A DNA stretch of 64,000 nucleotides from Apostichopus japonicus (lineage: Eukaryota > Echinodermata > Holothuroidea > Aspidochirotida > Stichopodidae), in assembly GCF_037975245.1 (NCBI RefSeq), contig NC_092577.1, positions 13,571,013-13,635,012 of the forward strand. The letters run 5' to 3'. A model generated the notes under the pieces. The model searched no databases. It saw only the letters and a list, made by a program, of their open reading frames with translations, and was not told where the DNA came from. Positions 2,221 to 50,000 of this stretch are shown here, piece after piece; position 1 is the stretch's first letter; the number at the start of each line of letters is the position of its first letter. Position numbers and translations under genes: made by a program.

Positions 2221-2224
2221 TCCC

Positions 2225-2665: not shown

Positions 2666-2824
2666 ACATATATACGGATACAAACACACACAATGTGGTT
2701 TAGATGGTTACATTGATATCACAAAATACGTTTTACGAATAAAAAGGGGAAAATATTCCTAATGATATCCAAGCTCCAAGTTTTCTTGAAAATATAACTT
2801 TTTTTCTTTTTTATTCTTCTTCAG

Positions 2825-10168: not shown

Positions 10169-11015
10169 TTAGGCCAGACAAACATAAGTCAAAATTAAAT
10201 TGATTAAATTATCAATGATTGGGTGTTCTGGATGCGTAAGATCAGGAAAGGGTTGGGCTCGTGTGATATCCCAGGCATTCAAATAACCGAGTGAAGCATC
10301 ATCTCCGAAAACCTCTCTTAAAATCATCTCTTGTCTTTGCGTGTGCCAATCACTAGATACTAACATAATCCCTTGATTAACGTAATCCCTAGTATTTGTG
10401 CCTCTCACGATCAGTTTTAATCCAGGTAATCGCTTTCTCAAACGATTAATAGCCTCTTTAACACCTCTAAGTCGTTTTTCATAATAACTTTCTCCGGATA
10501 TAGCAAAATGCGCCCAATAAGATAATAACAGTACTTCATTAGATCCTTCTCCTCCGGTTATGTTGTCTATTTCTTTGGCAGCGTAGTGGTTATCAATTCG
10601 CTTTGTTCCTCCATTAGGAATTCCATGAAAATGAAAATATAGAGTGAAATTCCCTCGTTTACACAGTAATTCGCGTTTTTTGTCGTCGCTAGGCGGTAGT
10701 GATTTCTTTTCATAACATAACTTTTTGCCTCTCAAATTTAAATATAACTGTCGAGCCGTAGAATCTCCGTAAATGCGGAGCATTTTGTCGCTGAGACAAT
10801 CACGTGCTTCCTTGTGAGTAAACTTTGCTATTTGACAGTTGAATGGGTGCCAAGTTTCCTCAAAGATGAATCCGTTTGGATGAGCAGTCGGTGGACCCGA
10901 TGCTTTACAGTAAGGGAGACTTTCTATGGGAACATATCCAGGTGTTTGTCTTCGGCTGTCGACATCATCGTTGACAAGAATTGGTCCAATCCCATGTTGA
11001 ACAACTTTGCGTGTA
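10169..11015 (-). CDS. NXPE gene exon 4: PC-esterase domain and stop
   Basis: Acceptor TTTTGTCTGCAG, phase 2. It encodes 282 codons including TAA at 10169-10171. Visible blocks are LPYCKASGPP, FEETWHPFNC (W and C conserved in the family), DCLSDKMLRIYGDST (SGNH block I, serine nucleophile) and PDLTHPEHPI (DxxH, catalytic Asp and His). The frame has no stop or frameshift. The first ATG at the GDS block is internal, since the frame and conserved Cys residues extend upstream to the acceptor. Confidence 0.9.
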
Positions 11016-14000
11016 CTGCAGACAAAATGGAAGAACAGTTTATTACAAGATAACTATTGGAACGCCGAAAGGATCCAACATCCAATAATTATTATGATAG
11101 TATAGTGGGCATTTATTCATTAGCGTATTCATTCATTCATTCGTGCGTTCATTCATTCATTTATGTATTCGTGCATTCATTCAGTCAAGCATTGATTCAT
11201 AATTTCTTTCATTCATTTATTTATTTATTTATTTATTAATTCATTCATTCTTTCGTTCATTCATTCATACATTAATTAATTCATTCATTCATCCATCCAT
11301 CTATTGATTCATTCTTTCTTCATTCATTCATTCATGTATTGGTGCATTCACTTATTCAAGCATTGATTCATACTTTCTTTCATTCATTCATTCATTTATT
11401 CATTCATTCATTCATTCATTCATTCATTTATTTATTCATTCATTCATTTGTTCATTCATGCATTCATCATTCCATCCATTAATTCATTAATTGATTCATT
11501 CTTTCTTCATTTATTCATTCATTCATTTATTTATTCTTCTTCACAACAGCAGTGCAAAGTAAAGAACACAACGTTCAAAACAACGAAACAATTATTATGT
11601 TATGAAGAGAAAGTCAGCTGAAAACCTTGGTGGATTTGACATGAGCAGACTCCCTGAAAAAACAGCAGTATGTGAAGAATGAAAACTTTCCTGAATAAGA
11701 CGGAAGAAAGTACGAAGAAGGTGCGTAATGCCAAAAAGCACAACCTATCCCTACATATTCATCTTACGGCCTCCCATTCCCCACCTCTCCCTCTCCCACT
11801 CCCTGCCCCTCCACAATACTAAATATGAATGATACGCAGTGTAAGCTAAGAGGTTTCTACGTAAAGTCTTGGTAAATGGGTTCTTTAATCCATACTTACA
11901 CTTCAAGAATTTTCACCTCATCCCCTTTAATTTCAGACGTTAGATCAGAAAATAATTTATTTTTATCTTGGTGGAAGGCTGTCCAGTGTCTGCACGTTAA
12001 ATTCTTATCTTTCGGAACATTGCAGTAAAAGGGTGAATATACTTCTGGATCACTGAAGTTACAGAAAGTTGTCTGAAGAAAAACAAATGTATCAGATTTA
12101 CAAACAAGAACATTAAAGCATTTAGGGCACAAAGTTTGGAGTGTCGTGTGTTGTATATATTCCAACTTACAAAGAAAACATGAATGAAATGGTTTACATA
12201 TAAAGCAGTTGCATATAAATCAACCTACCATTTTGATGGTCTGTTAGGTTTTCAACTAAATTTTGTAACCGGAAACAAGAGCCCAAGGGCACTGTGGTTC
12301 CTTGCGTAGGGGTATATGACAATACACATAATATTATCAAGCAAGATTGGGCTCAAATAGTCAAGTAATTGTGGTCCTACATGTACCCATAAAGTAACCA
12401 ACACTATATCCAACACTTTTGTGATCACAAATTGTGATCGGATTTTTGATCAAAATGCACTTTTGAGATCTGAATATGGCGTCGAAAATGTAAGAAATAT
12501 AAGGTCACCTACAAGCGGGTCAACAGATATGATAACATTGGTGACCTCAGATGACATGACCTTTAAGTTTCAAAATGTTCCACCACCCCATTCACAACTT
12601 GTCCCAAAATATCAACCATGTCACACCTTGGCATTGAGATTTAATTGCATTAAATGTCAAAAAATTAACTTTGAACTTGTATACATAACTTCACACACAA
12701 AGGTCACCCGGAGGTCAACCAATTGACATTTTTGATCGGTGAGACCTAAATAGAGCATGACTGGAAAAATTCAAACATTTTTTCTTTGCCCATTTTCTCC
12801 CCCCAAAATACTACTTTTTTAACATTAGCTGACCTTTGGTGACGTGGGATCACATGACCATTGGTTTGAAAATATTCCCCTATACCATTTGCAACTTGTC
12901 CAAAAAATCAACCTTGTCACACCTTGGCACTGGGAGTTATTGCATTAAATGTTTGAAAATTAACTTTGACCTCATATAACTTCGCACACGAAGGTCACAC
13001 GGGGGTCAACCAATTGCCATTTATGATCAGAAGGTACCTTTAACATCTGAAAATAGCATCGAAACTGTAAAAATCCACAAAACACGAAAAGGTCACCAGA
13101 GGTCAAATTGAGGTCAAGGGTCACCCAGATGCAGGTCGACAATTGGATTACATTGAAGCAACTCCCAACCCTAATGGACAATTTGTTCTCAAGTTATTGC
13201 AAAAATACCAGTTTTTTTATCATAAATTGACCTTTGGTGACCTTGTATCACATGACCGTTATCTTTGAAAATATTCCCCTATACCATTTGCAACTACTCC
13301 AAAAATATTAACCTTGTCACACCTTGGAACTGGGAGTTATTGCATTAAATGTCTGAAAATTAACTTTGACCTCATATAACTTCGCACACGAAGGTCACAC
13401 GGGGGTCAACCCATTGACATTTATGATCAGAAGGTACCTTTAACATCTGAAAATAGCATCGAAACTGTAAAAATCCACAAAACACGAAAAGGTCACCAGA
13501 GGTCAAATTGAGGTCAAGGGTCACCAAGATGCGGGTCGACAATTGGATTACGTTGAAGCAACTCCCAACCCTAACGGATATTTCGTTCTCAAGTTATCGC
13601 AAAAATACTAGTTTTTTATCATTAATTGACCTTTGGTGACCTCGGATCACATGACCGTTAAGTTTGCAAATATTCCCCTATACCATTTGCAACTTGTCTC
13701 AAAATATCAACTGGGTTACACCTTGGTACTGGGAGTTATTACACTAAATGTCTGAAAATTAACTTTGACCTCATATAACTTAACATACAAAGGTCACCTT
13801 GGGTCAACTTATTGACATTTTTGATTGATGAGACCTAAATTAGAGCATCAAACTATACAAATTCAAACATTTTTTCTTTGCCCATTTGCTTCCCTCAAAA
13901 TACTAGGTTTTTAACATTAATTGACCTTTGGTGACCTCGGATCACATGACCGTTAAGTTTGAAAATATTCCCCTATACCATTTGCAACTTGTCCGAAAAT

Positions 14001-17000
14001 ATCAACCATGTCACACCTTGGAACTGGGAGTTGTTGCATTAAATGTCTGAAAATTAACTTTGACCTCGTATAACTTCGCACACGAAGGTCACACGGGTGT
14101 CAACCAATTGACATTTTTGATCGGAAGGTACCTTTGATATCCAAATCTAGCATCAAAACCAAACATTTTCTTTTTTGCTCGTTTCCTCCCAAAATAGGCA
14201 CATTTTTTCTAATGTGACCTTTGACCTTTTGACCTTGATTTCAGATGTAATTTAATCTCCTGATTCCAAAAAACAAAACGACAAGTCTGTACAACCATCC
14301 TAACTCCGACCGAAAAACTTTGACCCCATATAACTTCGCACATAAAGGTCACACGGGCTCAACCTGATGACATTTATGATCAGAAGGTACCTTTGACATC
14401 TGAAAATAGCATCAAAACTGTAAAAATCCCCCAAAACACGTAAAGGTCACCAGAGGTCAAATTGAGGTCAAGGGTCACCAAGATGCGGGTCGACAATTGG
14501 ATTACGTTGAAGCAACTCCCAACCCTAACGGATATTTCGTTCTCAAGTTATCGCAAAAATACTAGTTTTTTATCATTAATTGACCTTTGGTGACCTCGGA
14601 TCACATGACCGTTAACTTTGAAAATGTTTCCCTAACCAGTTCACAACTTGTCCCAAAATGTCAACCTTTTCGCACATTGGCACTGGGAGTTATTGCCGTT
14701 TTAATATTTTCGGTTTTTGGACCATAACCGACCTTTGATGACTTTTGTGAGCACCAAAAACAATAGGGCACACCTTCTCCATATGGCGGATCTATAGTCC
14801 AAGTTTGGCTTCAATCCAACATTCCCTTATTGAGATAGAGCGTACCCAAGCAAGTGTCACAGACACACACACACACACACACACGCACACACACACACAC
14901 ATACGCCAACCTGACTGCATAGGTTCCTTTTGCTAAAGCAAGGAACCAAAAATACAGATTCGACCTTGCATAGTGAATCACTCTTTTACTTACAATGCAT
15001 CAATACTTTTGTTTCGCAAGATGACTATAGCTTTCAAGCCATGACCTAACAATAGTTGCCCGATTCTTGTATGCAAAGTAGGCTAGGGATACAGGAATGC
15101 CTGTAATGAACATAAGCGTGTCGTTGACCTAAAGGGTGTAAGTGTTTATATTTTCACACATGTTGACAATCTGTTTTAGTTTAGTTTAGTTAGATTAGAA
15201 GAAAAAAAGCATCAGGCGGGACACTTAAGTCCCCATCAAGGACCCTGTAGAGAGAGGGAAAAAAAACTGAAGATACAAACACTCAGACCCGATTACAATG
15301 CTTAAAGTGCTTGTCCAAAGCATTCTTAAACCCATTGACACTACTTGCAAGTACAACTTTCTCAGGCAAACCATTCCACTCATTCACAACCCTATTAGAA
15401 AAAAAGTTATGCCGAATATTAATCCTACTATGCGACTTTTGGAGTTTAAGACAATGACCTCTAGTACAACTACTGTTAGCAAACATGAAAAAGTCGGTAA
15501 AGGATAAATTGTCGAAACCATACACAATCTTGAAAACCTGGATCAAGTCCCCACGTAACCTCCTAAGCTCCAGTGTGGTGAGATTCAACAGTTGTAACCG
15601 CCTATAATAAGGAACCCTCTTTAGGGAACTAATCATCCTAGTAGCCCTCCTTATCCTTAGCAAAATAAGGGTTCCAAGCCTGCACAGCATACTCCAGATG
15701 AGGCCTAACCAACTGCTTATTAAGCCTAACTACGATGTCCTCTTTCAGAAAACTGAAGTTCCTCTTGATCATACCTAAAACCCTATTACCTCTTTTAGCA
15801 GCTTCAAGACAATGTTTAGAAGGTTGCAGAGATGAGTCAATGTAGATACCTAGGTCTCTTTCAACAGAGACCTCCTGTAACTCCACACCATTAAGATTGT
15901 ATGTAAACTTTTGGTTACTACTACCAATGTGCATTACCTTACATCTATCAATATTAAAAAGCATTTGCCACCCCTGAGACCAGGAAAAAATCTTATCCAA
16001 ATCCGCTTGAAATTTCTCAGAATCGCTTTTGGAAGATACCTCAGAATACAATTTGGTGTCATCAGCAAACTTCTTAGCTGTACACAAAATATCTCCGTTG
16101 ATGTCATTTATATAGGCAACAAACAACAAGGGACCTAATACAGACCCTTGTGGAACCCCACTAGTAACGTTATGCCAAGAAGAAGCACAGCCTTTAATTA
16201 CCACCTTCTGTTCCCTATTACCAAGCCAATTCCCGATCCAAGACAGTAAATTCCCTATGACACCCATGCTCTTCAGCCTAAGTAACAGACGCTGGTGGGG
16301 AACATTATCAAAGGCCTTCTGGAAATCCATGCACAACATCTACAGACCTCTGCCTATTTAGTGAGCTTGTTACATCTTCCATAAACTCAAGGATATTAGT
16401 GAGACAAGACATTTTTTGACAAAAGCCATGTTGAGACTCTCTGATCAAAGACTGACTGCTGAAGTGACAGACCATAGACTTTTTAACAATAGACTCCATG
16501 ACCTTACAAACTACACTAGTGAGACTAACGGGCCTATAATTACAGGGCTTAGACTTATCACCCTTCTTGAAAATTGGGGTAATATTAGCACATCTCCAGT
16601 CCCTAGGAACATAACCTTCATCCATAAATTTACTAAAAACCAACGAGAGTGGAACGCAGAAATGGTGTGCAAAAGTCTTCAACAAATACGGATGGATTGC
16701 ATCCGGCCCAGAAGCTTTAGAAACATTTAGACGAAGCAGCTCCTTTAAGACAACCTCATCCGAAAATAAGACCGTATCCAGTTTAGGCCTATCACTGCCC
16801 CCCTGAAAATCTGGAATACTACTCGTGTCTTCCCTTGTGAAAACCGACACAAAATAGTTGTTCAAAAGATCTGCAAGATCCTGACTATCAGTAACTATAT
16901 TATCAGCCTGTGGTGCCCTAAGAAAACAATTGCATCTTTAACTTTCTGCTTTGACCTGACATAAGAAAAGAAGGCCTTTGGGTTATCCTTAATTTTTAGG

Positions 17001-20000
17001 GCAATGCTTTTTTCGAAATTCAATTTTGCATCAGAGACTAAGCATTCTACCTTCAGCTGATGGATTTTAAACTTGGCCAAAAGAGATTCAGACTTAGTCC
17101 TCCTAAACAACTTCCACATTCTACGTTTTAGCCTAATTGCACATCTAACTTTCTTATTCATCCAGTGAGGCATACTGCTTTTACGGCGACGATTCTTCCA
17201 CGCAACATGATTTTCCATAATGACCTTTAATTTATCAGCAAAACAAATCCACGACTGAGAAGCACTCATATCTCTAAACAAATTAATCCAATCTGTACCC
17301 TTTAGTAAAGTTTCAATTGCCTCTGTATCTGATCTCGAAAAATCAGGGACTTTTTCATTGCTAACAGAATTTACGACTTTGCAAACAACATCAAAAGCTA
17401 GTATATCATGATCACTAGTTCCTAGTTTTCTTAGACCCGTCAAATCAACAACATTGCTTGGATTAGAACTCAAAACAAGATCCAGGATGTTATCCCCCCC
17501 CCCCTAGTAGGGAAAGTAACATGTTGATGTAAAAAGCAATCTTGCACAACATCTAGAAAATTACTACCCTTCCTACTACTAGAGCCATCTATCCAATTAA
17601 TGTCAGGAAAATTAAAGTCGCCCATTATAACAACATCACCTTTAGCAGCCTTTCTAATTGAATCAAACAGCACGGCATCATTATCATCGCTGCTGTTAGG
17701 AGAACGGTAAACAACACCCACAGTGATAACGTCCCTGGACCTCTTGGAGTTGTTTGTGGACAACTCGCACCAGACAGAATTAACAAAAGCCCCTTGCAAC
17801 TGAGATTTCTCAACACTTACAATTTCATCCCTGTTTTGCTTAACTGTTACCAAGTATAAATTTAAACAAACCTTTGGAGGTCTTTCAGAGCAATCCACAT
17901 TTTCTGCCCGCTTCACCCCAGCATCATCTATCATCTCAAACTCTCCCACGTAATTATGGGCGTAAGATCGTTGACCGTCTAAAGAAGGGCTGAACAATGG
18001 GATCGCCTCCGCTGGGTGAACCAGTAATACCTCGATGTTCATCAAACCTTCCCATAGCAAAGGGAATGACGCCAGATAGGTACCGTTGCGGTAATCGACG
18101 AATTTATCGGCGATTACCGCCGCATAAGGAACTCTAGAGAACAGCTTTATCCTAAAGAAGTCTTCACCGTATAGCTTTGGTCGGTTAAGATTATCCATGG
18201 CTTCGATTCGGATGATTATTCTATCACATAAACCATATCGCAGTTTGGGATTTATAAGAGTTACTTTGGTAAAGTTAGGACTGGTAACATTGTCGAAGGG
18301 AAGCGTTTTCATCGGCACTCGGTTTGTAGATCTGATTGGCTGAAAGTTAAACCGGTCGGGGACGTCAGGGGAACATGCAACAGGATGATGGGCCTTGGGT
18401 TCAAACTTGTAGAGTGAAATATTTGTAAATAAAGACAAAACAAAGATAAGAAATAGTAATAAGTAACTGGAAATGTTATAAGCGCAAAGAATTATGACAT
18501 ATTGTAGAACAAACAATTTTGACTAATTTTAATAAATAAAATGATATGAAATGTCAGTCATCAGCTTCATTATTACGTCATCACGACAATTTGAGGCAAA
18601 TTTGACATGATAATGGGAGATATCAAGAACGGACTACAACGTGTAATTTGTCAAACTTGGAAATCTGATATTAGCAACTTGAAATAAATAATCCTAGAAC
18701 CAAGGTTATTACTTTTACTTAAGAGATGGGAACCAGTGGGCCATTCGCCCACTCCGCCTCCCAACACCTCACCTCCCATCGTCAGTGGAAAAGTTCCGTC
18801 GAGGGATTTTTACATTCACCCGAGGAAGAATTAGATAATTGCTACACGGATGTACCTCCCCCCTCCTCCTCTACTATTCAACATTCACCCCTACAACTTG
18901 CCAGGGTATTTATAACCACAGTCATTCGTTTAGAGCCAATTAAAACCCTGATCCATGTAAAAGATGACTCAGAATGCAAAATTTGACGTGTAAACTTTCA
19001 TTCTGTGAATATAGACACACCTACACTGGAGTCGGCCATGCATCTCCTTCATAAATCCTTGCTTCGCCTCTGGCCCTTCAGAGGAAATTTATAACTCCTA
19101 GAATAGTGATAAAACTTCTATCTGCCACCACCGAGATTAGAACCAAGGCCAAGGACCTCGAAAACGACTTTAAAACTTAGCCCGTGGTCATTGGTAACTT
19201 GTCACACCCACACACCAAAGTGTGGACAATTCCAACCATCCCAAAATGGGGCACTTCAATGCAACACGTCTACATGTTCACTTGGGGGGGTGGCTTCCCC
19301 TATAGGTTGCAGCCACAAACCGGCGCACGCAACCATATTTACAAGTAACTTGCAAGTCCCCAGTATACACTTGGATCAAGAGAGGCAATGGAGATAAAGT
19401 GCCTTGCCCAAGGACACAACGTAATGATCTGGCCAAGACTTGAACCTGCAAACCTTTGATCACAAGTCCACTGCCTTAACCACTTGACTGCAACGCTCTC
19501 ACTACAGTGTGATAAAAAACAAGTGCAGCAACGCTGCAGAAGCCCAGCTAAGCTTCTGTTTAAGAAATTTGTTTTGATTGGCATTATTTCTGAGCAGCTT
19601 ATCCGTTCGCTTGTGGTAAATATAGAACATTAAGCGGGAAAACGGTGGCATTGCCTTTGTCTCCTTCTTAGCAGAGCAACCTATTTTGTTACAATGTTTG
19701 AAAGTTCTAAACAGGGCGGGATTTGAGTTGTGAAAGTGGGGGGGGGGGCAAACCTGCCAGCAAGACTATCTAAGCGGAGCGCCACCATCGGTTGGCGCGG
19801 AGCGTACATGAAATTTTTGGCTTTACAAACCCTCCAGATGGCCGGAAACGGCACTTCCGGAGTGCTCTAAGCTGCATGTACCCATCCTTGAAATATGGAT
19901 CTCATGTCTGCAATTTGCATCTAGATAGTTAATTATCGTTTAAAATTTTGAAGAGGATTGATAGTAGAACATATGGTCAGATGGTCATGTACAACTTTTG

Positions 20001-23977: not shown

Positions 23978-24340
23978 ATATATTTATATGTATAGTTGAA
24001 AACGTAATGAGTTGGAAAATTAAGAACAGTGCGGACACCCTAACCAACTAGGCTATGGACGCTGATTGTATGTCCAGAGGTTTGAAACCGCGGTAAGAAG
24101 GTCGTAATTCCACTATATGCCTATGTCACCTGTATTGAGCAATACTAGTTCTCTTTTTGGTGACATTTGCCTTTCTCTACAGATCAAACATGATTCTAAC
24201 CAACTCGAAGTCATTTGCGATTCCTATGGCGGGATATCGAAAGAGATACTTTAAACAGACTATTGTTAATGAAATGGAGGTAAACGACACTGGCAAATAA
24301 TATATATATATATATATATATAGCCCATATATATATAGGC

Positions 24341-24384
<44 letters not shown>

Positions 24385-25337
24385 AATAAATAAAGATCAA
24401 CACACCAGAAAAATTCCACTTCACGACCGGTTTCGTCATTTTTTGGGACTCATCAGGCGAAGGTAGGAATCGAACCCGGGATCTTGTGTCACAGACCGAA
24501 GTCCGCACTACTCGACCACAGTGATTCTACTGGTATGTGAATGCGTATAAACTTGCTATGTACAACTGTTGATGAGGGCGTATAACCCAAGTGATATGAT
24601 TGTACAGAGTGAACCCCTGGTGCTTTGAATCTGACAATTTACCCAGAATTACCCCTTATTATAGGCATGCCAAGCCGTAAATAAGAAATGAAAGTGTAGC
24701 AATGGTATCACAGATATATAGTAAATAAATAAAGATCATCACACCAGAAAAAATCTTCACGACCAGTTTCGTCCCTTTATTGGACTCATCAGGCGAAGGT
24801 AGGAATCTAACCCCGTATCTTGTGTCACAGACCGAAGTCCGCACCACTCGACCTACAGTGATTTTACTGGTATGTGAATGCGTATAAACTGGCTATGTAT
24901 ATATAACTGTCAATGAGGGCGCATTACCCAAGTGTTATGATTTTACAGAGTGCACCCCTGGTGCTTTTAATCTGACAATTTACACAGAATTACCACTTAT
25001 TATAGGCAAGCCAAGCCGTAAATAAGAAATGAAAGTGTAGCTATATATCTCTGTCATACCACTTGCTACCCATTTATTTCTTATAAATATATATATGTAT
25101 ATAAAAAATATATTTATTCTTCTCATATATTTTAGTAGTTTTGTTGAAGCGATTTTGTAAAAAAAAACTTACCGTATATGCGGATGCGATTTTAGGTGGT
25201 TGGAGCACAGTGGCTGCTGTGCTGTTCGTGTCAAAAAGAGCAATTCCATGGGAAAGTTCATTGTAACAAAATTTCAGCAAGAAAACGCAGACTACAATCA
25301 ACCCAAAAACTGTTGAATGCGTCTTACGAATGTTCAT
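10169..25337 (-). CDS. NXPE-family protein (neurexophilin and PC-esterase domain), complete four-exon gene
   Basis: Four minus-strand exons join without a frame break: 25337-25173, 18405-17872, 12072-11900 and 11015-10169. Intron phases are 0, 0 and 2, and the total is 1719 bp (572 residues plus stop), close to the usual family size. The order is short cytosolic tail, signal-anchor helix (about residues 8-25), neurexophilin-like beta domain (about 70-235), Cys-rich linker, and SGNH/PC-esterase domain (about 370-572). YGDSTARQ carries the nucleophile serine and DLTH the Asp/His pair. The protein should be a type II secretory-pathway or surface protein. Reactions are unknown for most animal members, though the SGNH fold suggests O-acyl esterase or transferase work on glycans. 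Introns 1 and 2 (6.8 and 5.8 kb) are packed with repeats. Confidence 0.88.
11105..11540. repeat. (ATTC)n-type microsatellite
   Basis: Imperfect TTCATTCA repeats with TTTA and TTCG variants fill most of NXPE intron 3, which is only 884 bp long. Confidence 0.93.
11900..12072 (-). CDS. NXPE gene exon 3: Cys-rich linker
   Basis: Acceptor TTTTTCTTCAG (phase 0) and donor GTAAGT (phase 2). It encodes 57 codons with CNFSDPEVYSPFYCNVPK and a following NLTCRHW, matching the conserved four-cysteine linker that precedes the esterase domain in NXPE proteins. The phases fit the neighbouring exons exactly. Confidence 0.88.
12265..14948. repeat. Repeat R, copy 1 (GGTCA/TGACC-rich, 2.7 kb)
   Basis: It starts near CAAGAGCCCAAGGGC and ends in GCAAGGAACC. 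TGGTTCCTTGC (12295-12305) and GCAAGGAACCA (14938-14948) form an 11-bp inverted repeat at its edges. Inside are partly tandem modules of about 398 bp (GACCTTTGGTGAC at about 12832, 13230, 13629, 13922 and 14581). An (AC)n tract (14863-14901) precedes a terminal hairpin, GGTTCC...GGAACC. It shares its sequence with 35535-37010 and its end with 62150-62276. No transposase or reverse transcriptase is visible, so the class is unknown. It lies in NXPE intron 2. Confidence 0.8.
14949..15164. other. Intron spacer between repeat R and LINE
   Basis: Unique-looking intron sequence of the NXPE gene. Nothing was recognised. Confidence 0.3.
15165..17850 (-). mobile_element. CR1/jockey-like LINE, 5'-truncated and frameshifted
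   Basis: Successive minus-strand frames give an endonuclease part (VITVGVVYRSP and GDFNFPDINW, about 17720-17590), a linker, reverse transcriptase with CNYRPVSLTSV, KAFDNVPH, SGVPQGSVLGPLL and the catalytic FADD box (about 16060), then the thumb and C-terminal region (LEYAVQAWNPYF, VVNEWNGLP). Frames shift near 17490 (a C9 run), 16880, 16320 and 15660, so the copy is dead. The 3' end is a short (ACTAA)n tail at 15172-15195. The 5' end begins within the endonuclease only about 20 bp after the NXPE exon 2 splice donor. Confidence 0.88.
17872..18405 (-). CDS. NXPE gene exon 2: neurexophilin-like domain
   Basis: Acceptor TCACTCTACAAG and donor GTTTGT, phase 0 on both sides, 178 codons. It contains LRYGLCDRIIIRIEAMDN, KLYGEDFFRIKLFS, DYRNGTYLASFPLLW and IEVLLVHPAEAI, the conserved core of the NXPE beta domain. 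The open frame runs on past the donor to 17470 because LINE sequence continues in the same frame. The donor (+3 and +4 are T) is weaker than the others in this gene. The true exon edge is set by phase agreement with exons 1 and 3. Confidence 0.85.
18406..19360. other. NXPE intron 1, left part
   Basis: No gene was recognised. The stretch around 18740-18900 (CCATCGTCAGTGGAAAAG, then GAGGAAGAATTAGA) has a diverged relative at 29690-29800, so it is probably a dispersed repeat. Confidence 0.4.
19365..19500 (-). mobile_element. tRNA-derived SINE
   Basis: The minus strand carries a pol III A box, AGTCAAGTGGTTAAGGC (19489-19473), and a B box, GGTTCAAGTC (19446-19437), at tRNA spacing. The tail contains TGTGTCCTTGGGCAAGGCAC, a motif shared by many animal SINE tails. 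It is too diverged to be a functional tRNA. Confidence 0.75.
19712..21046. mobile_element. Nonautonomous hAT element 3 (1.3 kb) with internal repeats
   Basis: The ends CAGGGCGGGATT and AATCCCGCCCATG form inverted repeats. Identical 8-bp target duplications GTTCTAAA (19704-19711 and 21047-21054) flank the element. Inside, a block reading CACTATCTAAGCGGAGCG with GCGCCACCATCGGTTGGC recurs three times (about 19767, 20008, 20203). G10 and C14 runs lie near the two ends. There is no transposase frame, so it is nonautonomous. It lies in NXPE intron 1. Confidence 0.93.
21055..22138. other. NXPE intron 1, middle part
   Basis: Only short open frames on both strands with no recognisable domain, and no bounded repeat seen. 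Confidence 0.35.
22140..23425. mobile_element. TIR element with ACTGTAA subterminal repeats
   Basis: The left end (ACTGTAAGAAACGACCGTAA) and the reverse complement of the right end (CACTGTAAACAATTACCTGT) are imperfect inverted repeats. Both are followed by many TTTACAGTA words. Near the right end, 23356-23375 and 23383-23402 form a perfect 20-bp hairpin stem with a 7-nt loop. The CACTG start recalls nonautonomous CACTA/EnSpm elements. No target duplication could be fixed, so the superfamily is uncertain. Confidence 0.6.
23915..23975. repeat. (TA)n microsatellite
   Basis: About 27 TA units within NXPE intron 1. Confidence 0.95.
24020..24110 (-). mobile_element. Possible tRNA-like SINE head
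   Basis: The minus strand shows TAGCCTAGTTGGTTAGGGTG, resembling a pol III A box with tRNA-like context. The matching B box is degenerate, so only a remnant is claimed. Confidence 0.35.
24300..24380. repeat. (TA)n tract abutting the ribozyme array
   Basis: TA repeats with a short GGCCTC interruption. The tract appears to be an expansion of the TATATAT word carried inside the neighbouring repeat unit. Confidence 0.85.
24381..25085 (-). ncRNA. Tandem retrozyme-like array: tRNA-like promoter plus hammerhead ribozyme
   Basis: Two ribozyme cores on the minus strand lie 336 bp apart. The predicted cleavage points are between 24425 and 24424, and between 24761 and 24760. Each has CTGATGA, a short stem II (GTC with GAC in the left copy, GTCC with GGAC in the right copy), GAAA, and GTC before the cleavage point. 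Stem I pairs CTTCGC upstream with GTGAAG downstream. Just upstream of each core is a tRNA-like A box (TGGTCGAGTAG, 24518-24508 in the left copy) and B box (GGTTCGATTCC, 24476-24466; mutated to GGTTAGATTCC in the right copy). Tandem units with a type-I hammerhead and a pol III promoter are the layout known for small metazoan retrozymes. The right end (25043-25085) carries an inverted piece of the same unit. Confidence 0.82.
25173..25337 (-). CDS. NXPE gene exon 1: start codon and signal anchor
   Basis: ATG at 25337-25335 opens MNIRKTHSTVFGLIVVCV, a short basic tail followed by a hydrophobic helix typical of type II membrane proteins. The donor GTAAGT follows ACG at 25173 in phase 0, matching exon 2. 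The frame is also open upstream of the ATG, so a few more residues cannot be excluded. Assignment to the NXPE gene rests on strand, phase, topology and total length. The 6.8-kb intron makes it the least certain exon. Confidence 0.72.
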
Positions 25338-27742: not shown

Positions 27743-28080
27743 GACATTGAATACCGACATTGAATTCCGACATTGAATACCGACATTAAATACCGACATT
27801 GAATACCGACATTGAATACCGACATTGAATACCGGCATTGAATACCGACATTGAATTCCGACATTGAATACCGACATTAAATACCGACATTGAATACCGA
27901 CATTGAATACCGACATTGAATACCAACATTTAATATCGACATTGAATACCGACATTGAATACCGACATTGAATACCGACATTGAATACCAACATTTAATA
28001 TCGACATTGAATACCGACATTGAATACCGACATTGAATATCGACATTGAATACCAACATTTAATATCGATATTGAATACC
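27743..28080. repeat. 13-bp minisatellite, 26 units
   Basis: The unit GACATTGAATACC is repeated exactly 26 times (338 bp). The variant AACATTTAATATC starts at 27925, 27990 and 28055, i.e. every 65 bp, so the right half has a five-unit higher-order period. The minus-strand open frame across it is a by-product of the repeat. Confidence 0.97.
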
Positions 28081-30689
28081 GGTTGAGTACAGACTAGTGT
28101 ACAGTACTACACATTTATAATACACTACCGGTATACCGTGAGACCGTCATTGGTATAATAATAACCTTATCACTTCCCTTAAGGTAGAGATTCCCTAACT
28201 GGGTGCATGAACCCCCTGGGGGTGCGTGAGTCCATCCCAGGGGTTTCATGAGACGTTTCTGAAAGTCAAAACTACAGTACTTTTTGTTCAACTAAAATCT
28301 GATATATCATATCATTTAGTAATGTACAAAAGTCGTACCTATCGACAATCTCTTTTCGCGTTCCATACGCATATGTACCGTGCATGTGATAAATAACTGA
28401 ATTATGAAACAGACACAGGCCGCATGACTATGAAGAAGTTGTTGTACGCATGACAGTACGTCGTGAAGATAAAGAGCTGAGAAAGCAACTGAAAGGTTGG
28501 CCAATGTAGTAATTATTATTTTGGAAATTCCATATGACCTCCATTTTGCCCTACACGAAGCAAAGTTAGCATAAATTCATGCTTGAAAATTGTTGTTGAG
28601 CGACAATAATGACTCAGATCGTGTCTCGAAAAGTTGGGGGTTCGTGGACAACTCTGACATCTACACTTTGAATGATCCAACAATAGTGGCGTGACTATAG
28701 GCTGGTGCGACCGGGGAGTCCTCCTGGGCCCCTGGGCCCAGAGGGACCGGTCTCAAACTGTCTAGAAATAACTACCCATCTGCATGATGGAGCTGGTCAC
28801 CGGCCGTAGTAGGACAAAATAGGGATTCAAGCGGAATCCTGTCCACAAACAGAGAAAGTCTGAGAGCGCCACATCCGGGCGTCTAGACGTGCCAAATATT
28901 AATTGGGTCTTATAATCCCAAAGCGGCACCGTGGCCCCTGTTGCTCCTTGCTAGCCCATCATCCAACAGGTAAGTAGAATCCTGTAATGACGTCACACAC
29001 TGAAGCGATCAACTCTGCACTCTCGTGGAAGCCCAATGTGTGAAGCGTAATGGTACGGTAGACTTAATGGTCCATCAGGATATGAAAGATTGAACTAAAA
29101 GAAAAGATAACATCTTCTTTTTTTTTCATTTCTTACTTCCACTCATAAACTGGCACTTCCAAAGGTATACAATTATATCGTCGGTTACAAAAAACAGAAT
29201 GGTCCAAACATAAGGAAAAAATAAAGAAAAAATATGTAGTCAATGCAGTAATGTAATAATATGGTAGCTATATCATTACGATAGAAGGCGTACAACGAAC
29301 CTAAATTAAGGCCAATTCACGAATCTGCAGGCTCCATGCCGTAGGCAAAGGACTCCTACAACGTCGTAGGTCTATTCTGACTGGGGATGATGGCCCAGCT
29401 CATTATGTGGCTCCTTAGTAAAACAAACAAAAAACGATTTAGTAATTGTGTTATAGTTTGACAGAAAAAAAACATACTAAAAAAAATTATAAGTAGCGAG
29501 ACAATTTTAACTTTCCTCATTATATTTTATTTTCCCGATTTCAATCAATGTCACCAGAATTGAAAATGTTAATATAATGAAAATGGGATAAATTTATAAT
29601 TTCACAATCGCAGAAAGGGACCCTCATATGCCCTATTTCAAAGGCGTGAACAAAATTAGTAGAAGAGGAGAACCCCCCCCCCCCCCTTCATCCACCTATC
29701 GTCAGTAAGGGAAATGGTTTAGTCGGGCCCATTTAACAATCAGTGGGGGAAGAATTAGAAATCTGCTACGGGGGTGTACATCTCCTCTTTCCAACATCAC
29801 ACAAAAAAACACGAGTATTTATTAGAGCAAACTTCCGTTTCAAGCAAATTCCAGATTAATTATAGTCCAAGAAAGAACCCCTATGACATTTACTTTTTCG
29901 TTAAGTCTTTTTTCTCCTGGGGGAGGACCCAGCTCAGATATATGAATAGTCTTCAGTGAGCTGTAGAGCCGCACAGCCGCCTTTATATGAAATCCATTTG
30001 TCACCTCGTGGCTCTTCTATGTCAACCCCCCCCCCCCCCCTAACAAGTTTCGATTTCGTGTCTTACAGTGGCATGTAAGGGGAAGCAGAAATTTGGGTAA
30101 AATGGAGGGTAGTTCGATGCAAAATAGTGCTTTTTATGGTCCAGAACGTGTATCTGTACCATAGAAATTGAACTTGGAAGAATGCTGACACAGTGTATCA
30201 CCGTGTGTTTAAGCAGTGAAGCCTTGAAAAGTGAGGGCGCTTTGCTTTGTACGGCAAAAGCCGGATCATTTGTACTTCTTTATACATACATTGTGCATTC
30301 GACTTTGAAACTGAGTTTGATTTTACCCGCTTTTTTGAAACACTATGTGTAATTTGCACAACTGAGACATGCATGGCGATCAGAGTGGTAAGTACTATAC
30401 TCCTGACTAAAGAACCAACTTTGAAAACTTTTTTTTTCGCCTTCAGTGACTCGAGTAAGTGGGGTGTTTTGTGCAACTTTTAATATCAGGAAATAGTCAT
30501 TTCCGGTATCTGAGAGGCACATGGCAAACATTTTTCTTGAATGTATTTTGTTAGTGCTCCACTCAAATAGTGTCATAGTTGGCCCTGAAAAATGCCGTGA
30601 AATAGCAACCCTCCCTCTTCCCCACCCCCTTCCCACACACACCTACTTTTGTGCAATACTTCCACATTAGTCTGTGAATGTTTGGACGC
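28081..30689. other. Intergenic DNA with degenerate repeats
   Basis: No gene was recognised. GATTCCCTAACTGGGTGC near 28190 resembles a hAT-type end but no partner end was found. C-runs occur near 29670 and 30027. The 29690-29800 block is related to 18740-18900. Confidence 0.4.
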
Positions 30690-31295: not shown

Positions 31296-33827
31296 TCACC
31301 TATATCGCACTGGCCAATGAACCCGCCTACCTGATCGCGTAACGGTCTTTGGCTTGGGGTCAGGCTGTATGTGTCCGGTGGGCGTATCGTCCGAGTGGCG
31401 TGTCTTGGTTGAAAGTTCGTCGTTCTCGAAAGAGGAGGTGGGCAAAGTATTCGGTTCGGTCGGTTCCACAAGTTCATCTTCTTCAGCATACGCGACCTTT
31501 AACCTGTCAATCGACACTGCGTCATGTTTGCAATTGATGTCCAATACAAATGTTTTGTCCCCCCTGGAAATGACACGGAAAGGCCCTCGGTACGGAGGTT
31601 GCAGTGGACGTTTCACTGAATCAACTCTGACCCAAACGTGTGTGCAGTGCTGAAGATCGTCGGACTGCTGCGCACGCCGTTGATTTGGCCTGGTATCGGT
31701 CCGTTTTAAATCGGCCATCTGTCGTTTCAGGCGGTCGACGAAAATTGTAGGATCAAGCTCGTTCACGTCAGGAACAGGAGATATCAGCTGACATGGCACA
31801 CGAAGAGTAGTACCGAAAACTAATTCCGCTGCACTGCACCCGAGGTCGGCTTTAAGCGTTGTACGTATGCCAAACAAAACAAGTGGCAAAACCTAGGCCC
31901 ACTTGGAAGGATCTCGTTGAGCTTTGATGGATGATTTGAGATGCCTATGGAAGCGTTCCACAAGCCCGTTGGATATCAGGTGATACGCAGTCGTACGTAT
32001 TCGTTTGCTGCCGAGAAGAGCGGTCAGTTGTTTGAACAGAGCAGATTCGAATTGAGCGCCTCTATCCGTCGTTATAGTCGATGGTACACCGAAAGTGGAA
32101 ATCCATCTGGTGACAAATGCTTCAGCTACGGTCTGGGCAGTGATATCTGGAATACAGATTGCTTCCGGCCAACGAGTGAAGCGTTCGATAACGGTGAGGA
32201 GGTATTCGTATCCTCTTGACGGTGGGAGTGGGCCCACAATGTCCAAATGAATGTGTTCGAAACGAGCATCGGGGACAGCAAAAGTACCAAGTGGCGTCGT
32301 CGTGTGTCGGTGTACTTTGGCGCGTTGGCAGGACTCACATGATTTAGCCCAGGACCTGACGTCTTTGTTTATGTTGGGCCACACGAAACGGTCCGTGATA
32401 AGTTTCCGTGTTGCTCTGATTCCAGGATGCGACATGGAGTGAAGTGAATTAAAAATGTCTTTCCGAAACACCTTCGGTATAAACGGTCGAGGTGAACCGG
32501 TTAACATATCACACCATATCGTGCCAGGTGATGATGGGAGCGGAATATCCTGAAATTTCATGACAGGGGAGTCCTTCAATTCCTGAAGCTGAATGTCATG
32601 CTGTTGTTTTGCAGCGATTTGAGCAAAGTCGATCAGGGTAGATGAGGGCAAACCTTGACGGAATGCGTTAACGCCTAAACGAGACAGTGCGTCTGCGACG
32701 ACATTGTCCTTTCTACTGACGTGGCGAATATCCGCCGTGAACTGGGAAACGAAATCCAGATGCCGTATCTCTCTCGGTGAGTAGCGGTCGGTACTAGTTT
32801 TTAACGCATATGTTATTGGTTTGTGGTCGGTGAGAATGAAGAATTGTCGTCCCTCTAGTATATGGCGGAAATGACCTATTGCCGAGTATATTGCTAGTAG
32901 CTCACGACCAAACGCACTGTATCGCGATTCTGTCTCGCTTAGTTTTCGGGAGAAAAACGAGATTGGATGCCAAACTCCTTCAATATTTTGCTGTAACACG
33001 CCTCCTAAGGCTTTGTCCGAGGCGTCCACCATTAATGCAAGGGGTTTGGATGAGTCGCAATGCGTAAGGACAGTTGCGTTGGCGAGCGCTCGTTTGCTCT
33101 CCTCGAATGAGTCGGATGCCTCGTCATTCCAGTCAATGGGTGCTGACTTGGGCTTCTTTCCCGCTAATAGGTCTGTTAACGGGTGTAAAATACTGGAACA
33201 TCCCGGGATGACTCTCCTATAAAAGTTGATAAGTCCAAGATATTCTCGACGTTTGCGTAACGAATTTGGTTTCGGAAATTCGGCTATGGCTTGCACTTTC
33301 TCCGGGAGAGGTGATATTCCTTTGGAGCTCAATTTGTGTCCAAGAAATTCGAGCTCTGGAACACCGAACTGACACTTAGTTGGATTGATCACCACTCCGT
33401 AATCTGCGAGTCTGGCAAACAGCTGTTTAAGGTGACGGGTATGTTCCTTTGGAGATTTGCTGGCCACGAGTACGTCATCAATGTAAGTGTAGCAATATGG
33501 CAAACCGCGCGTTACCTCGTCTATGAAGCGTTGGAACGTCTGGGCGGCATTACGGAGTCCAAACGGCATTCGTTTAAATTCGAAGAGGCCGAATGGGGTT
33601 GTGATGGCCGTTTTTCAAATATCGGAGTCTTCCACCGGGATTTGACGGTAGGCTCGCACTAGATCAATTTTGGAATAAATTGATGTTCCCGAAAGTGAAG
33701 TTGAAAAGTCGTGAATGTGTGGAATAGGGTAGCGGTCTGGAATGGTAACGTTGTTTAGGGCTCGATTATCGCCACATGGCCTCCAATCTCGTTCTTTTTG
33801 GCCACCATGTGTAGAGGGGATGACCAA
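31296..33827 (-). pseudogene. Gypsy pol: RT C-terminal part, RNase H, integrase (broken)
   Basis: The frame 33827-31296 is interrupted by TGA at 33614-33612 and TAG at 31892-31890, the latter where family members have a Trp-rich stretch. Visible motifs are [10 protein letters not shown] (about 33485), RNase [13 protein letters not shown] and [12 protein letters not shown], an integrase HHCC-type zinc region (HPGIRATRK and CESCQRAK), the catalytic residues in [20 protein letters not shown] and [10 protein letters not shown], and a C-terminal GPFRVISRG tail. Only the point lesions separate it from an intact pol. Confidence 0.88.
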
Positions 33828-34507
33828 GTACTGTTAGATTGTCGGACGATCCCAAGTTGCAGCATGTGGTCGAATTCTTGTCGAGCGATAGTTAGCTTGT
33901 TGGGCGGTAGACGACGTGTGCGAGAAAAAATGGGTGCTCCGATCGTGTTAATATAGTGCGTTACCGAATGTTTCACCTGGGTTTCTTCAAAAGTTACCCG
34001 CAATATCTCTGGGAATTCCTTTAATAGAGCATGATAAGGTGAATCGTTAGGTGTTGTGGCAAACATCGGACAAAGGGACGTTTCTTGGTTGAGATGCCTT
34101 CAATAGTGAGATTGGTTAACCTGTCGATAAGTATTATTTCGAATATCGACAAGTAATTCAAAATATCGTAAGAAATCACAACCGAGAACAGCAGTTTCCA
34201 CGTCGGCGATCACAAAGACCCACGGAAAATTCCTACGCAAACCAATATCGAGTGTTAGTGACTTGTGCCCGAAAGTGTCTATTTTGGTCTGATTTGCCGC
34301 TTGAAGATATGGCCCCTTTCCACGATTATATAGGTCACAACGTACGGGGGATACCACACTGACCGCTGCCCCTGTATCAATGAGAACACGTTTCGTGGTG
34401 GTTCTGTCACGAATGTAAAACAGGCGGCTTCGATTTTGGCCAACCCTCGCCACCGTTACACGCTGGCCTGTTCGTTTTCCGACTTTAAATTGCTTGGATA
34501 CTTGCAT
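33755..34507 (-). pseudogene. Gypsy pol: protease and RT N-terminal part (broken)
   Basis: The protease motif LIDTGAAVSVV lies near 34380 and ETAVLGCDFL follows. A TGA at 34102-34100 interrupts before the RT start ([28 protein letters not shown]). The frame is lost at an A-run near 33797 and continues in the next frame (33827 downward). It overlaps the end of gag by 52 bp in the -1 frame relative to gag, consistent with expression by ribosomal frameshifting in the parent element. Confidence 0.85.
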
Positions 34508-35292
34508 GGCGCTCTACATTTCCTGGCCTTATCACCAAATGATTGATGATGCCAACAAATATCACTGTCGATGTTGCTGGTATAATTTGACTGGGAACTG
34601 AATCTTTGTCGGCTTCGAGATCGGCTTCGACTGCGCTCCCTGACCTCTGACTTTAGTGAAGCAATTTGGGCAGTGAGTTCACGGACTTGTTCACTTAGTT
34701 GTTGCACTTCTGATTTTTGTGCCTGGGCCTGGGGTGTTTGTATGGCAGCGATGGGAGGATATGCAGGAGTTACTTCCATGATTTTATCCGCTAACTCGGC
34801 TACGGTTTTGATAGGTGTGGTGTCGCTCATTGACGCCAGAATTAGTTGGGCGCTCGATGGAAGTCGCTGAACAAAAAGTTGTTTCAGAATGTTCGCATCA
34901 AGGGTGTTTGTACCTAGCAGCTGACGAATTTTGCGCAACAGTTGCGTGGGTTTTCGATCCCCCAATTCTTCCGAAATTAACAACTGGTGGAGCCGTTTTT
35001 GCTCCAAAGCCGTTGTTCGCTTAATCAACTCCTCCTTCAGTTTTTGATAGGGTCGGTCGCTTGGCTTACTTATAAGCAAGTCGCGTACTTCCTGAGCTAT
35101 TTCCGGTTGTAGGGACGATATCACGTAGGAATATTTTGTATCCTCGTTAGTAACTCTCCTTGTTACGAATTGCGCCTCGACCTGGGCGAACCAGATAATT
35201 GGGTCACTGGGCCAGTACGGAGGTATTTTAATACTAACTGTGGATAGCGATTGTTGTGTTTCGTGTGAATTTTCTGGATGTACAGTATAATA
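34456..35292 (-). pseudogene. Gypsy gag with zinc knuckle-like end
   Basis: The open frame has 278 codons. It contains PPYWPSDPIIWFAQVEAQF and YVISSLQPEIAQEVRDLL, a conserved gag core of animal Gypsy elements, then LGTNTLDANILKQLFVQRLP, an Arg/Ser repeat stretch, and CWHHQSFGDKARKCRAPC, an atypical zinc-binding cluster in place of CCHC. No in-frame ATG was found between the upstream stop (35295-35293) and the core, so the start is lost or lies at a non-ATG codon. Confidence 0.8.
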
Positions 35293-39745: not shown

Positions 39746-39752
39746 ATATATA
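39664..39752. repeat. (TA)n tract directly left of the plus-strand retrozyme unit
   Basis: TA repeats with TTTATATTTA interruptions end exactly where the ribozyme-containing unit starts. Confidence 0.9.
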
Positions 39753-40070
39753 GTGGAATTTTTCTGGTGTGTAATTCTTTATTGATTTACTATATATCTG
39801 TCATACCACTTGCTACACATTCAATTCTTATTTACGGCTTGGCTTGCCTATAAAGAGTGGTTATTCTGTGTAAAATTGTCAGATTCAAAGCGCCAGGGGT
39901 GCACTCTGTACAATCATAACACACCAGTAGAATCATTGTGGTCGAGTGGTACAGACTTCGGTTCGTGACACAAAGATCCGGGGTTCGATTCCCACCTTCG
40001 TCTGATGAGTCCCAAAAGGACGAAACCGGTCGTGAAGTGGAATTTTTCTGGTGTGCTATTCTTTATTAAT
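39753..40070 (+). ncRNA. Retrozyme-like unit with hammerhead ribozyme, single copy
   Basis: The unit opens with GTGGAATTTTTCTGGTGTG and the same text returns at 40037 after the ribozyme, so it is slightly longer than one 284-bp unit. The A box TGGTCGAGTGG (39939-39949) and B box GGTTCGATTCC (39982-39992) are intact. The hammerhead (39995-40040) has CTGATGA (40002-40008), stem II GTCC/GGAC (40009-40012 and 40018-40021) with loop CAAAA, GAAA (40022-40025), CCGG, and GTC with predicted cleavage after 40031. Stem I is CTTCGT with GTGAAG. This is the best-preserved of the three cores. It lies 220 bp downstream of the kinase stop codon on the opposite strand. Confidence 0.82.
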
Positions 40071-40288
40071 ATATATTGATATATATATATATATATTGAT
40101 ATATATATATATATATATATAGATATATATATTGATATATATATATATACAAATATATACATGTATAACATACATACACACACACAGATACATAAATTCA
40201 TTAACTTCTTCTATACTCTTACAAATGTGTGTAATTACCACCACCTGCCTCTGAAGGTCGGAAAAAGAATTTAAAAACTTAAACAATT

Positions 40289-47000: not shown

Positions 47001-50000
47001 CCCTCCCCCCGAATTGGTGACGCCGTGGCCACTGATTTCTTGGCTACCTCAAAACTCACATAAGAGCTGTAGTACGGCATCGAACACGAGGACTCGAACT
47101 CTTGTCTTTGATATGTCTCGCACTGGAGACCGAATCCACACAAGTCCGCAAGTATTTATTTCTTTTCTTTGAAAATGCTAGCTATTTATTTGCTTACGTC
47201 TGTTAAGACATCCTTTTCTTGGGCGGAAGATCAAATGACTGAATGATTATGAAGCCTCTGTAGCTGTGTAATAATATGTGACACTAACATAACATATCAA
47301 TATGAAAGAACATAACAAGCTGCTGGAAATCTCTGTTCTAATCTATCTCTGTTTCAGAACTACTAAATATACGTTATACGAGAAATGCAAAATACCTTTT
47401 GTGGTTTTAACAGCGACAGCCATATTGTCAGGATAACCAATGAGTCCAGTGATAACTCCCTTATACACAACACCGAATTCACCTTTTCTGAGTTCTTCTT
47501 TTAGGGTGACTTGACAGAGGTTTATCTCCTTGGATTTTAGTAGAGGTTCCACATCCCTGGCGTTCTCTGTAAATATCATAGTCTTCCTAACATAATTGTT
47601 ACGGAACAAACGATACACATGGCATATTGTTGAAAAAGGAGTGACTGTTCAAGCGGCTCTACCTTCTTATCCATAGTCATTCACGGATGCCTTTCAAAAT
47701 GGATGCAGCAACAATTTTTTTTTGACGGGCACGCAAAATTAACTAATAGATGGAAAATGGCTTCCACGGATTTACAAATATATGTTTTTGTTTTACCGGT
47801 CATAGAACGAATTCTTCTACAAGGGCACGGAAAGGTGTCTTCTGCAAGAACACAGAACACGAGTGGCACGGGAATAAGTCTTTTAAAAGGCACGGAGCAA
47901 AATGAACCAAATTTGACTTCATGATTACGGAAGAACATTTTATCTGTCCACCTATATATGAAGAATTTTGCAACTTAATGATGACTAAGAATGAAAAAGA
48001 CAGAAGTGAAAAGAGCATACCCAACTGGATACGAACAGTCTGGTAAAGTCTCCTTCTTTTAACGAGAAAAAAGAGTATCAGACTCAACAGTAAGACCAGA
48101 ATGACTGTAAGACAGACAACCAGGAGGAGACTGTTTGGTGCAACTGCAACTGAAGCTATGAATAATATATAATGGTACTTAGTAAACCGGAAATTGTTAG
48201 TATGTGTTGAAAGAGATTATAAACATAACCTGTGAGTAGTATATATCGTGCTACTTCACTCCCCCCCCCCCCAGGGAGCCGCAGGCACCCGTTTTTAGGG
48301 GGCCGTCTCCCGTTTCTCGGGAGCCGTTTCAGGAGCCTTCGTTTTCCGAGATCGTCATCGATGTTGTCATCGTTTATTTAAGTTATGCGTAAAACAAGTC
48401 GTAACATGTTCATCATTTAATTTAAGAAACGGACAAAACGCGTTGTAACGCGAATAGATAATATGATGTCAACGTTTTCTTGGGAATGCGCCAATAATGA
48501 GGATGAAATGATTCAGGACGGTATCCATTTGATTTCGCATCAATATTAAGGAGGAGCGAGGTGTTTCAAATCAAGCACACTACTAGCTGGTTACCATGGA
48601 CGACAAAGAAACATTTCCAGAAATCTCAGACGAATTGAACAACGCCGGCTGGCGTACGTACGTGGCAGAAAGATAAACCCTAGTTTGTGAACCAAGAAAC
48701 GAATCAGCGCATCGACGAATTCCCGAAGCTTTCGAAAGACATTTCAGGTTCATCACCAAACTTGACGCTTTTTGAGAATTGTATCGTAGATTACTTCATT
48801 GATTTGGAAGAAGTTCGCCCCAATTTTTGTAACGAAACAAAGCAGAGTGAACGGCAACATGCAGCAGTAACTGCACAGTCATCGCCCGTCGAGAAAGGAG
48901 AAGCGCTGGATTAACCGTGTCAGTAACATACTGAGGAATCTATGACCCGATTCTCGTTGGGAGGTAAGCGTCACGTTGTCTTAAAATGTTATCGAGGTTT
49001 ACTGTATGTTAACATCAGGGAATATTTTCGCAGGGAAACGAAATATAGACTCTTTCCCGGAAAGCGAGGTATTAATTTGAAAGTGGAGGAATGGAATAAA
49101 CTGTACGAACAAAACGCGCCGCAGTGTACAAGTTAACTTAATGACTGAATACATTCGTGTTTTTTTGTCGATCACATCATAACGGTGAAAGCAAAACGTT
49201 GGATACTGTCAGGGGACTTGTAGCCTGCATATTTGCCTCCATGATGGACGGAGTCGCCTACGGGTATTTGAAACAAAACTGCGAGGGTTGCGACATGGAG
49301 TGGCCTTCTCAGCTCAATCACCGTTGACCGATATGTACTTCAACGATTTGCAGCATTTGGTGAGAGACGAATGGATCATTGACGCCAAGAGAGAATCCCT
49401 GCTAAAGACAGTAGAAAATTCCTACCGTCCGATCGATTATGTTACAACTACGAATGAACTGGTCGCAATCACCAGAACTGGTGATAGAGGCAATCGAAAA
49501 GACGAACGTAAACGAAATCATCCGTGGACACCAAATGTCACTTATGTAGATGATGCTGGTACTCTCTGCATGGGTACAAACCTGGTAAAGTAAGAAAGCA
49601 AATGATCGTAAAACATGCGTAATACGCTCTCGTTGACAGGTTATAGAAAGCCTTTGACATCCATCACACCAGTAGATTAACTGTTGCCGAATGGTTAAAT
49701 TTGATAGGTCTGTGACACGAAGGTTCTGGTATCATATCATATTATTATTATTATTATAGTTGTTTTAATTATTATTGGACTAACTAACTGTGATTTGGGA
49801 CTACCTAACTGTGATGTTGGGTTAACCACAACCGTATGCTACTGGGTTATACTGGGATATATGCTCATTAAATATTATATCGTTGTCTTGCAAAGCCCCT
49901 TTTTCTAACAGTGTATATTAATATTAAGGATACTTCCTGAGTTAAGGAATGCATACTGGAAGACCAAAAGGAAGCCTCCGGAGCAAAACACTTCATGAGT

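Follow-up and report, generated by a model that had tools for sequence, protein, structure and literature searches.

Introduction

Non-LTR (long terminal repeat) retrozymes of metazoans, known from coral, mussel and axolotl, carry a type I hammerhead ribozyme in a unit of ∼170-400 nt with a guanine-cytosine (GC) content under 50%, include dimers among their copies and give circles with a self-paired fold (PMC7229834, available text). They seem to be promoterless, and read-through transcription is suggested for them in the available part of a 2020 review (PMC7761336). The schistosome repeats Sm-alpha and Sj-alpha are SINE-like (SINE, short interspersed nuclear element) and of high copy number, and combine a part related to transfer RNA (tRNA), reported as a full tRNA-Gln, with a type I hammerhead (PMC2770079, PMC8490949, PMC4918200, available text); as far as these accounts go, the union of tRNA and hammerhead is already known from Sm-alpha. 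Penelope elements with hammerheads encode a reverse transcriptase and a GIY-YIG domain; their available descriptions report that copies may be truncated at the 5' end or contain inverted pieces, that the targets are AT-rich and that alternative 3' ends, ∼30-40 nt from each other, lie downstream of the hammerhead (PMC11167929, PMC3846280). Here we analyzed a 64,000-nt stretch of the sea cucumber Apostichopus japonicus genome (NC_092577.1, positions 13,571,013 to 13,635,012; hereafter the window), in which two hammerhead-bearing units lie head to tail on the minus strand at 24375-25041. They belong to a family of ∼339-nt non-coding retrozymes in which, judging from the sequence, a tRNA-like RNA polymerase III (pol III) promoter is probably fused to a type I hammerhead and which a Penelope-like reverse transcriptase probably copies. 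A limited literature search on sea cucumbers found no mention of a hammerhead ribozyme.

The Apostichopus element resembles the metazoan retrozymes, as described in the text available, in its type I hammerhead, its unit length, its low GC content (42%), the dimers among its copies, the self-paired fold predicted for its putative circle and the lack of a coding region. It differs from them in its tRNA-like A and B boxes and in the mostly single, dispersed units of our sample. Compared by description with the available accounts of the schistosome repeats, it likewise appears SINE-like, probably abundant and similar in length (Sm-alpha repeats being about 335 bp), and seems to combine a tRNA-related part with a type I hammerhead; unlike them, it contains no tRNA that ARAGORN would call anywhere in the window, and its B box runs into the hammerhead. 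It shares with the Penelope elements, so far as these are described, the spacing of alternative 3' ends, the AT-rich targets, the 5' truncation and the inverted pieces, whereas no open reading frame of 110 codons is present in the unit (no stop-to-stop frame of that length overlaps the pair in the window). Like tRNA-derived SINEs, which have internal pol III boxes, are non-coding and are dispersed, the retrozyme has internal boxes and scattered copies, but it has no fixed 5' end at the promoter, carries a hammerhead and has a body upstream of the tRNA-like head.

A Retrozyme Dimer in the Window

The initial annotation had read the region 24381-25085 as a tandem retrozyme-like array with hammerheads 336 bp apart. 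The features found there are the following:

24714-25041, minus strand: retrozyme unit 1 (5' unit; blastn to the unit 88.3%; tandem repeat)
24375-24713, minus strand: retrozyme unit 2 (3' unit), 339 bp, its end ACTATATAT joined to (TA)n (blastn to the unit 89.5%; tandem repeat)
24755-24798, minus strand: type I hammerhead of unit 1, predicted cut after 24761 (RF00163, 34.1 bits)
24404-24473, minus strand: hammerhead of unit 2 with outer helix, predicted cut after 24425 (RF02275, 34.3 bits)
24748-24753, minus strand: T6 run just 3' of the unit 1 hammerhead, pol III terminator-like
24409-24413, minus strand: T5 run just 3' of the unit 2 hammerhead
25044-25084, plus strand: inverted 41-bp piece of the element at the 5' end of the dimer, ∼q334 to q34 across a unit junction (blastn to the opposite strand 90.2%)
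24300-24381, no strand: (TA)n microsatellite at the 3' end of the dimer, presumed target (repeat search; TA run of 31 in the 40-nt 3' flank)

Tandem Repeats Finder gave a period of 341 with 2.0 copies and 89% matches, and the two units are 89.5% identical. The term dimer fits better than array because just two units are present. Both minus-strand hammerhead cores were found as claimed, with CTGATGAGTCC at 24792-24782 and 24456-24446. The cleavage motif GGTC^GTGAAG places the predicted cuts 336 bp apart, in head-to-tail order. The covariance-model search proposed as a check matched unit 1 at 24798-24755 to the Rfam type I model RF00163, narrowly over the cut-off of 34 bits. Unit 2 matched the HH9 model RF02275 with an expect value of 2.1e-6, under the cut-off of 52 bits, and its stem II has one mismatch by eye.

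A Dispersed Family of Retrozymes

We searched the genome with RF00163 and scored 74 of 66,307 loose candidates; 59 matches were listed, 50 of them over the cut-off. All 59 loci together with the window hold 68 insertions, of which 57 remained once duplicated loci had been dropped (L006, L007, L017, L018, L019, L034, L044, L055 and two of the three L036 copies). Near-identical copies with their surroundings occur at L036 (C15, 15.2355-15.2455 Mb) and at L016-L019 (C1, 12.10-12.12 Mb), as if locally duplicated. The consensus unit is 339 nt long with a GC content of 40-42%, and its positions are prefixed here with q: a body (q1-185), an A box (q197-207), a B box (q240-250), a hammerhead reaching q300 with the cut after q289, a T5 run (q301-305) and a tail that ends in ACTATATAT at q339. 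In the HH9 alignment the final bases of the B box take part in the hammerhead's outer helix, so that the tRNA-like head and the ribozyme are fused. This anatomy supports the assignment of the family to the metazoan type of retrozyme, here with A and B boxes apparently fused to a type I hammerhead.

Single-unit copies prevail in the sample. More than one unit is present in 10 of the 57 sampled insertions, that is, in 9 of the 56 besides the window dimer, in line with the expectation that other such copies exist in the genome. The fold of the predicted circle has −88.0 kcal/mol, against a mean of −74.4 (standard deviation 5.1) in 200 shuffles. Across the copies, the pairs of the predicted circle gave 2969 paired cells against 2957.6 (standard deviation 3.4) and 13 two-sided changes against 5.6 (standard deviation 2.1) in 300 shuffles, a weak signal in which relatedness is uncontrolled.

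Repeats of this kind might also be satellite DNA with a fossil hammerhead and no present RNA cycle. Animal hammerhead repeats were first described as satellite DNA (PMC7229834, available text), the dimer units have diverged to 89.5% identity, and some sampled copies are decayed, down to 75.8%. The copies are, however, dispersed over 18 contigs among the 59 matches listed, with TA-rich flanks and scattered 5' ends, and most of the 30 best matches have kept an intact hammerhead core. We consider a fossil satellite very unlikely.

Conservation of the Putative Promoter Boxes

The boxes of the dimer lie upstream of each hammerhead:

24844-24853, minus strand: A box of unit 1 (GGTCGAGTGG), with a one-base insertion just before it
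24802-24812, minus strand: B box of unit 1, one base off (GGTTAGATTCC)
24508-24518, minus strand: A box of unit 2, one base off (TGGTCGAGTAG)
24466-24476, minus strand: B box of unit 2, perfect (GGTTCGATTCC); its last bases form the hammerhead outer helix in the HH9 alignment

Boxes upstream of both hammerheads had been reported from the start, and both units do have them, in imperfect form: neither of the two units has both boxes intact, and the consensus A-box pattern found no A box in the dimer. The combined pattern, with A and B boxes at pol III spacing, has its sole match in the window at 39939-39992, in a third copy of the unit.

Box conservation was measured in an alignment of 33 copies that cover q150-330 and come from 31 loci; these copies share ancestry, and the cells are not independent. 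The A box differed from the consensus at 6.9% and the B box at 4.4% of sites, compared to 15.6% in the spacer between the boxes and 13.7% in the body (q151-185); the T5 run had 6.7% and the tail 10.0%. The hammerhead value of 3.6% is biased by how the copies were found. In 30 of the 33 copies divergence is lower in the boxes than in spacer and body combined, and after removal of columns under 70% agreement the spacer and the body still had 10.9 and 10.7% mismatch. A level of 4-7% in the boxes against 14-16% elsewhere suggests, at the level of sequence, the pattern expected from a used pol III promoter.

Another reading is that the element is transcribed by pol II read-through only and that the tRNA-like boxes are a relic. 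Read-through is what the available part of PMC7761336 suggests for metazoan retrozymes, in which it sees no promoters, and the dimer does lie in sense orientation in an apparent intron. The minus strand carries an NXPE4_C domain at 10169-11050 and a Neurexophilin domain within 17473-18522, and by eye a plausible first exon of the NXPE-like gene, with a GTAAGT donor at 25172 (minus strand), is located ∼90 bp upstream of the dimer, which agrees with the placement initially proposed, in the first NXPE intron and in the same orientation. The lack of a dimer unit with two intact boxes also fits a relic, as does a run of at least four Ts right after the hammerhead in 59 of 69 copies. Boxes that are two to three times better conserved than spacer and body speak against it, and we regard read-through alone as a possible but somewhat doubtful account. 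In its anatomy, with the hammerhead fused to tRNA-like boxes and in sense orientation in the apparent NXPE intron, the dimer supports the retrozyme reading first given to it.

Insertion Marks and the Template

The 3' ends of the insertions fall mostly into two classes: 31 of 57 end at q326-339 and 16 at q1-40, 13 of the latter at q23-37, while 10 end elsewhere (13 of 57 lie in neither q326-339 nor q23-37). Expressed as distances past the cleavage site, the classes are about 44-50 and about 73-87 nt, mostly at (TA)n; the q23-37 ends lie 23-37 nt beyond the inner class. A TA run of at least 8 is present in the 40-nt 3' flank of 42, in the 5' flank of 26 and in both flanks of 21 of the 57 insertions, compared to 3.2% of background windows. 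An inverted piece was found in 16 of the 57.

Among the 47 copies with a classed 3' end, 37 reach upstream of q175, the expected pol III start. Since these copies extend past q175 and 10 of 57 insertions exceed one unit, the copied RNA evidently ran without a break through body, head, hammerhead and tail. A short pol III transcript, from the head to the T5 run, was rejected as the template for the 47 copies, all of which hold the tail and 37 of which hold upstream body. A cut linear monomer is not favored, as copies cross the cleavage site. In four of the 10 insertions with more than one unit the 5' end falls 4-32 nt past the cleavage site (q294, 316, 317 and 322), so a 5' end cut by the hammerhead is possible for some. 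We also considered shared derived sites as proof that one circle had been copied twice; with 13 of 24 such sites in the window dimer, 3 of 4 in L039, 1 of 4 in L025 and 2 of 7 in L016, they are not decisive.

These marks bear on a rival account, in which the element is an ordinary tRNA-derived SINE moved by a LINE (long interspersed nuclear element), with the hammerhead as a passenger and unequal crossing-over as the source of dimers. The tRNA-like boxes under apparent constraint, the dispersed single copies on 18 contigs and the TA-rich 3' end would all suit a SINE. Full-length copies of a SINE should begin at a fixed pol III start, yet in 37 of 47 copies the sequence continues beyond it on the upstream side, and the 5' ends of the 27 plain copies are scattered from q12 to q252. 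Most 3' ends in two classes and the 10 of 57 insertions longer than one unit likewise argue against a SINE, and no LINE with the retrozyme tail was seen, no genome-wide LINE search having been made. A SINE of this kind appears unlikely to us, and the marks agree better with copying of a hammerhead-bearing RNA by a Penelope-like reverse transcriptase.

Penelope Elements of the Same Genome

For a lizard Penelope protein, complementary DNA is reported to begin at two internal positions, between which lies an optional 30-40-bp tail; the protein favors AT-rich DNA and, in vitro, works mostly on uncut RNA (PMC11167929). Rotifer Penelope copies have inverted pieces and an optional 31-bp tail, according to the text available of PMC3846280. 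The literature, in the parts available, names Penelope as the likely mover of retrozymes on the basis that both have type I hammerheads, occur in tandem and co-exist.

Penelope-like pieces were found near the retrozyme in L022, L032, L034, L041 and L046. The L032 piece has a GIY-YIG domain (26.0 bits, Pfam cut-off 22.6); the pieces of L022, L034, L041 and L046 we take to be Penelope from characteristic motifs and their mutual likeness. Pfam and solved structures gave no match that names the L041 reverse transcriptase, which is so called from its motifs. L041 contains at 611-2738 (plus strand) a Penelope-like open reading frame that passes into retrozyme sequence, first an inverted piece and then a tail at (TA)n.

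A genome search for GIY-YIG domains scored 150 of 626 candidates and listed 37 matches, and 20 loci were fetched. A Penelope family A was recognized by motif in 15 of the 20. In 8 of these 15 loci the distance from a hammerhead-like cut, GAAACGT[C/T]^G, to the start of (TA)n is 45-50 nt, and in 4 it is 81-83 nt; the other three have one distant TA run, no TA run and no motif, respectively. Because the distances and the (TA)n resemble those at the 3' ends of the retrozyme, mobilization by Penelope is the best-supported mechanism, and we infer, with good support from these sequence marks, that Penelope enzymes probably move the retrozyme.

The 3' tail of a second family, Penelope B, was found at 7 places, and at 4 of them a retrozyme is no more than 120 bp away (within-locus permutation 0.005); two of the three remaining places are the near-duplicates L054 and L055. 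Three of the four tails near a retrozyme reach (TA)n within 10 nt. The fourth is L025, in which at 1217-1418 (minus strand) a 56-nt Penelope B tail is separated by 3 bp from retrozyme position q225, with another retrozyme beside it; this joint is a possible template jump. Rfam found no hammerhead in the Penelope B tail of L022, where one was read by eye. Penelope A and B copies stand tail to tail in one (TA)n tract in L070 (1978-2211) and L071 (1978-2169).

Other Copies and Surroundings in the Window

The third copy of the unit, on the plus strand, is absent from the initial annotation, and a decayed fragment was detected further downstream:

39752-40073, plus strand: second retrozyme insertion, 1.11 units with one hammerhead, between TA-rich tracts
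39996-40037, plus strand: type I hammerhead of this copy (RF00163, 34.9 bits)
39939-39992, plus strand: consensus A box (39939-39949) and B box (39982-39992) of this copy
49605-49695, plus strand: decayed retrozyme fragment, q115-208, without the hammerhead part (blastn 75.8%)

The 39752-40073 copy begins at q294, its 5' end stopping 4 nt before the cleavage site of a preceding unit. The window has a GC content of 38.3%. LINE-like endonuclease and reverse transcriptase pieces occur at 15641-18522 (minus strand), inside the NXPE-like gene region, and a Gypsy-like element at 31896-35292 (minus strand) has DUF7041, reverse transcriptase, RNase H and integrase domains. A 13-bp minisatellite of 26 copies (27743-28081) and a 400-bp tandem repeat (12805-13825) are also present.

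Discussion

The unit anatomy, the copies, the two 3'-end classes, the TA-rich flanks, the inverted pieces, the conserved boxes and the distances like those of Penelope A can be read directly in the genome, and from them we infer a cycle of transcription, self-cleavage, circularization and reverse transcription that would run as follows. A copy with at least two hammerheads would be transcribed, with the boxes serving as a pol III promoter or with pol II reading through an intron such as that of the NXPE-like gene. The hammerheads would cut out unit-length RNA, which may be ligated into a circle. A Penelope-like reverse transcriptase would prime at a nicked (TA)n tract and start at either of two sites, which lie ∼44-50 and ∼73-87 nt past the cut. 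From there it would copy toward the 5' side of the RNA, through hammerhead, tRNA-like head and body; the distance would vary, in some cases exceeding a full unit, and an inverted piece would often be added.

Several observations weigh against this scheme. Three of the 16 outer 3' ends lie at q1-6 and not at q23-37, and the 10 of 57 ends outside both classes have no place in it. The template could be a circle or an uncut multimer alike. LINEs, too, are known for TA-rich targets and inverted 5' ends. The sample was selected by hammerhead score and covers copies with a hammerhead. In the three window copies, head plus hammerhead do not fold more stably than shuffled sequences. Conservation equal to that of the boxes extends to the 11 nt before the A box (6.3% mismatch), and the T5 run after the hammerhead should stop pol III, which is a puzzle for transcription from the boxes. 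On the Penelope side, none of the 20 fetched loci contains a retrozyme, L070 and L071 look like one duplicated insertion, and the family A hammerhead is degenerate upstream of the cut by eye. The tails of the retrozyme and of Penelope A have no likeness beyond TACTATATAT: 937 of 2000 shuffles score as well without the TACTATATAT end and 15 of 2000 with it. Homology of the two tails was therefore rejected, being not above shuffles once the TA end is removed.

Similar distances from cut to start and the same kind of (TA)n end with almost no shared tail suggest that the hammerhead plus its spacing may be the recognition cue. The fuller proposal, that Penelope-like reverse transcriptases move a pol III-promoted retrozyme, that they may recognize the hammerhead and spacing instead of a shared tail, and that the L025 joint is a template jump, is one for which we see about an even chance.

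How animal retrozymes are transcribed and what moves them are two questions that this family addresses, with its conserved boxes and with Penelope elements of like 3' ends in the same genome. Its insertion marks, which resemble those of Penelope, hint at the enzyme that may move such elements.

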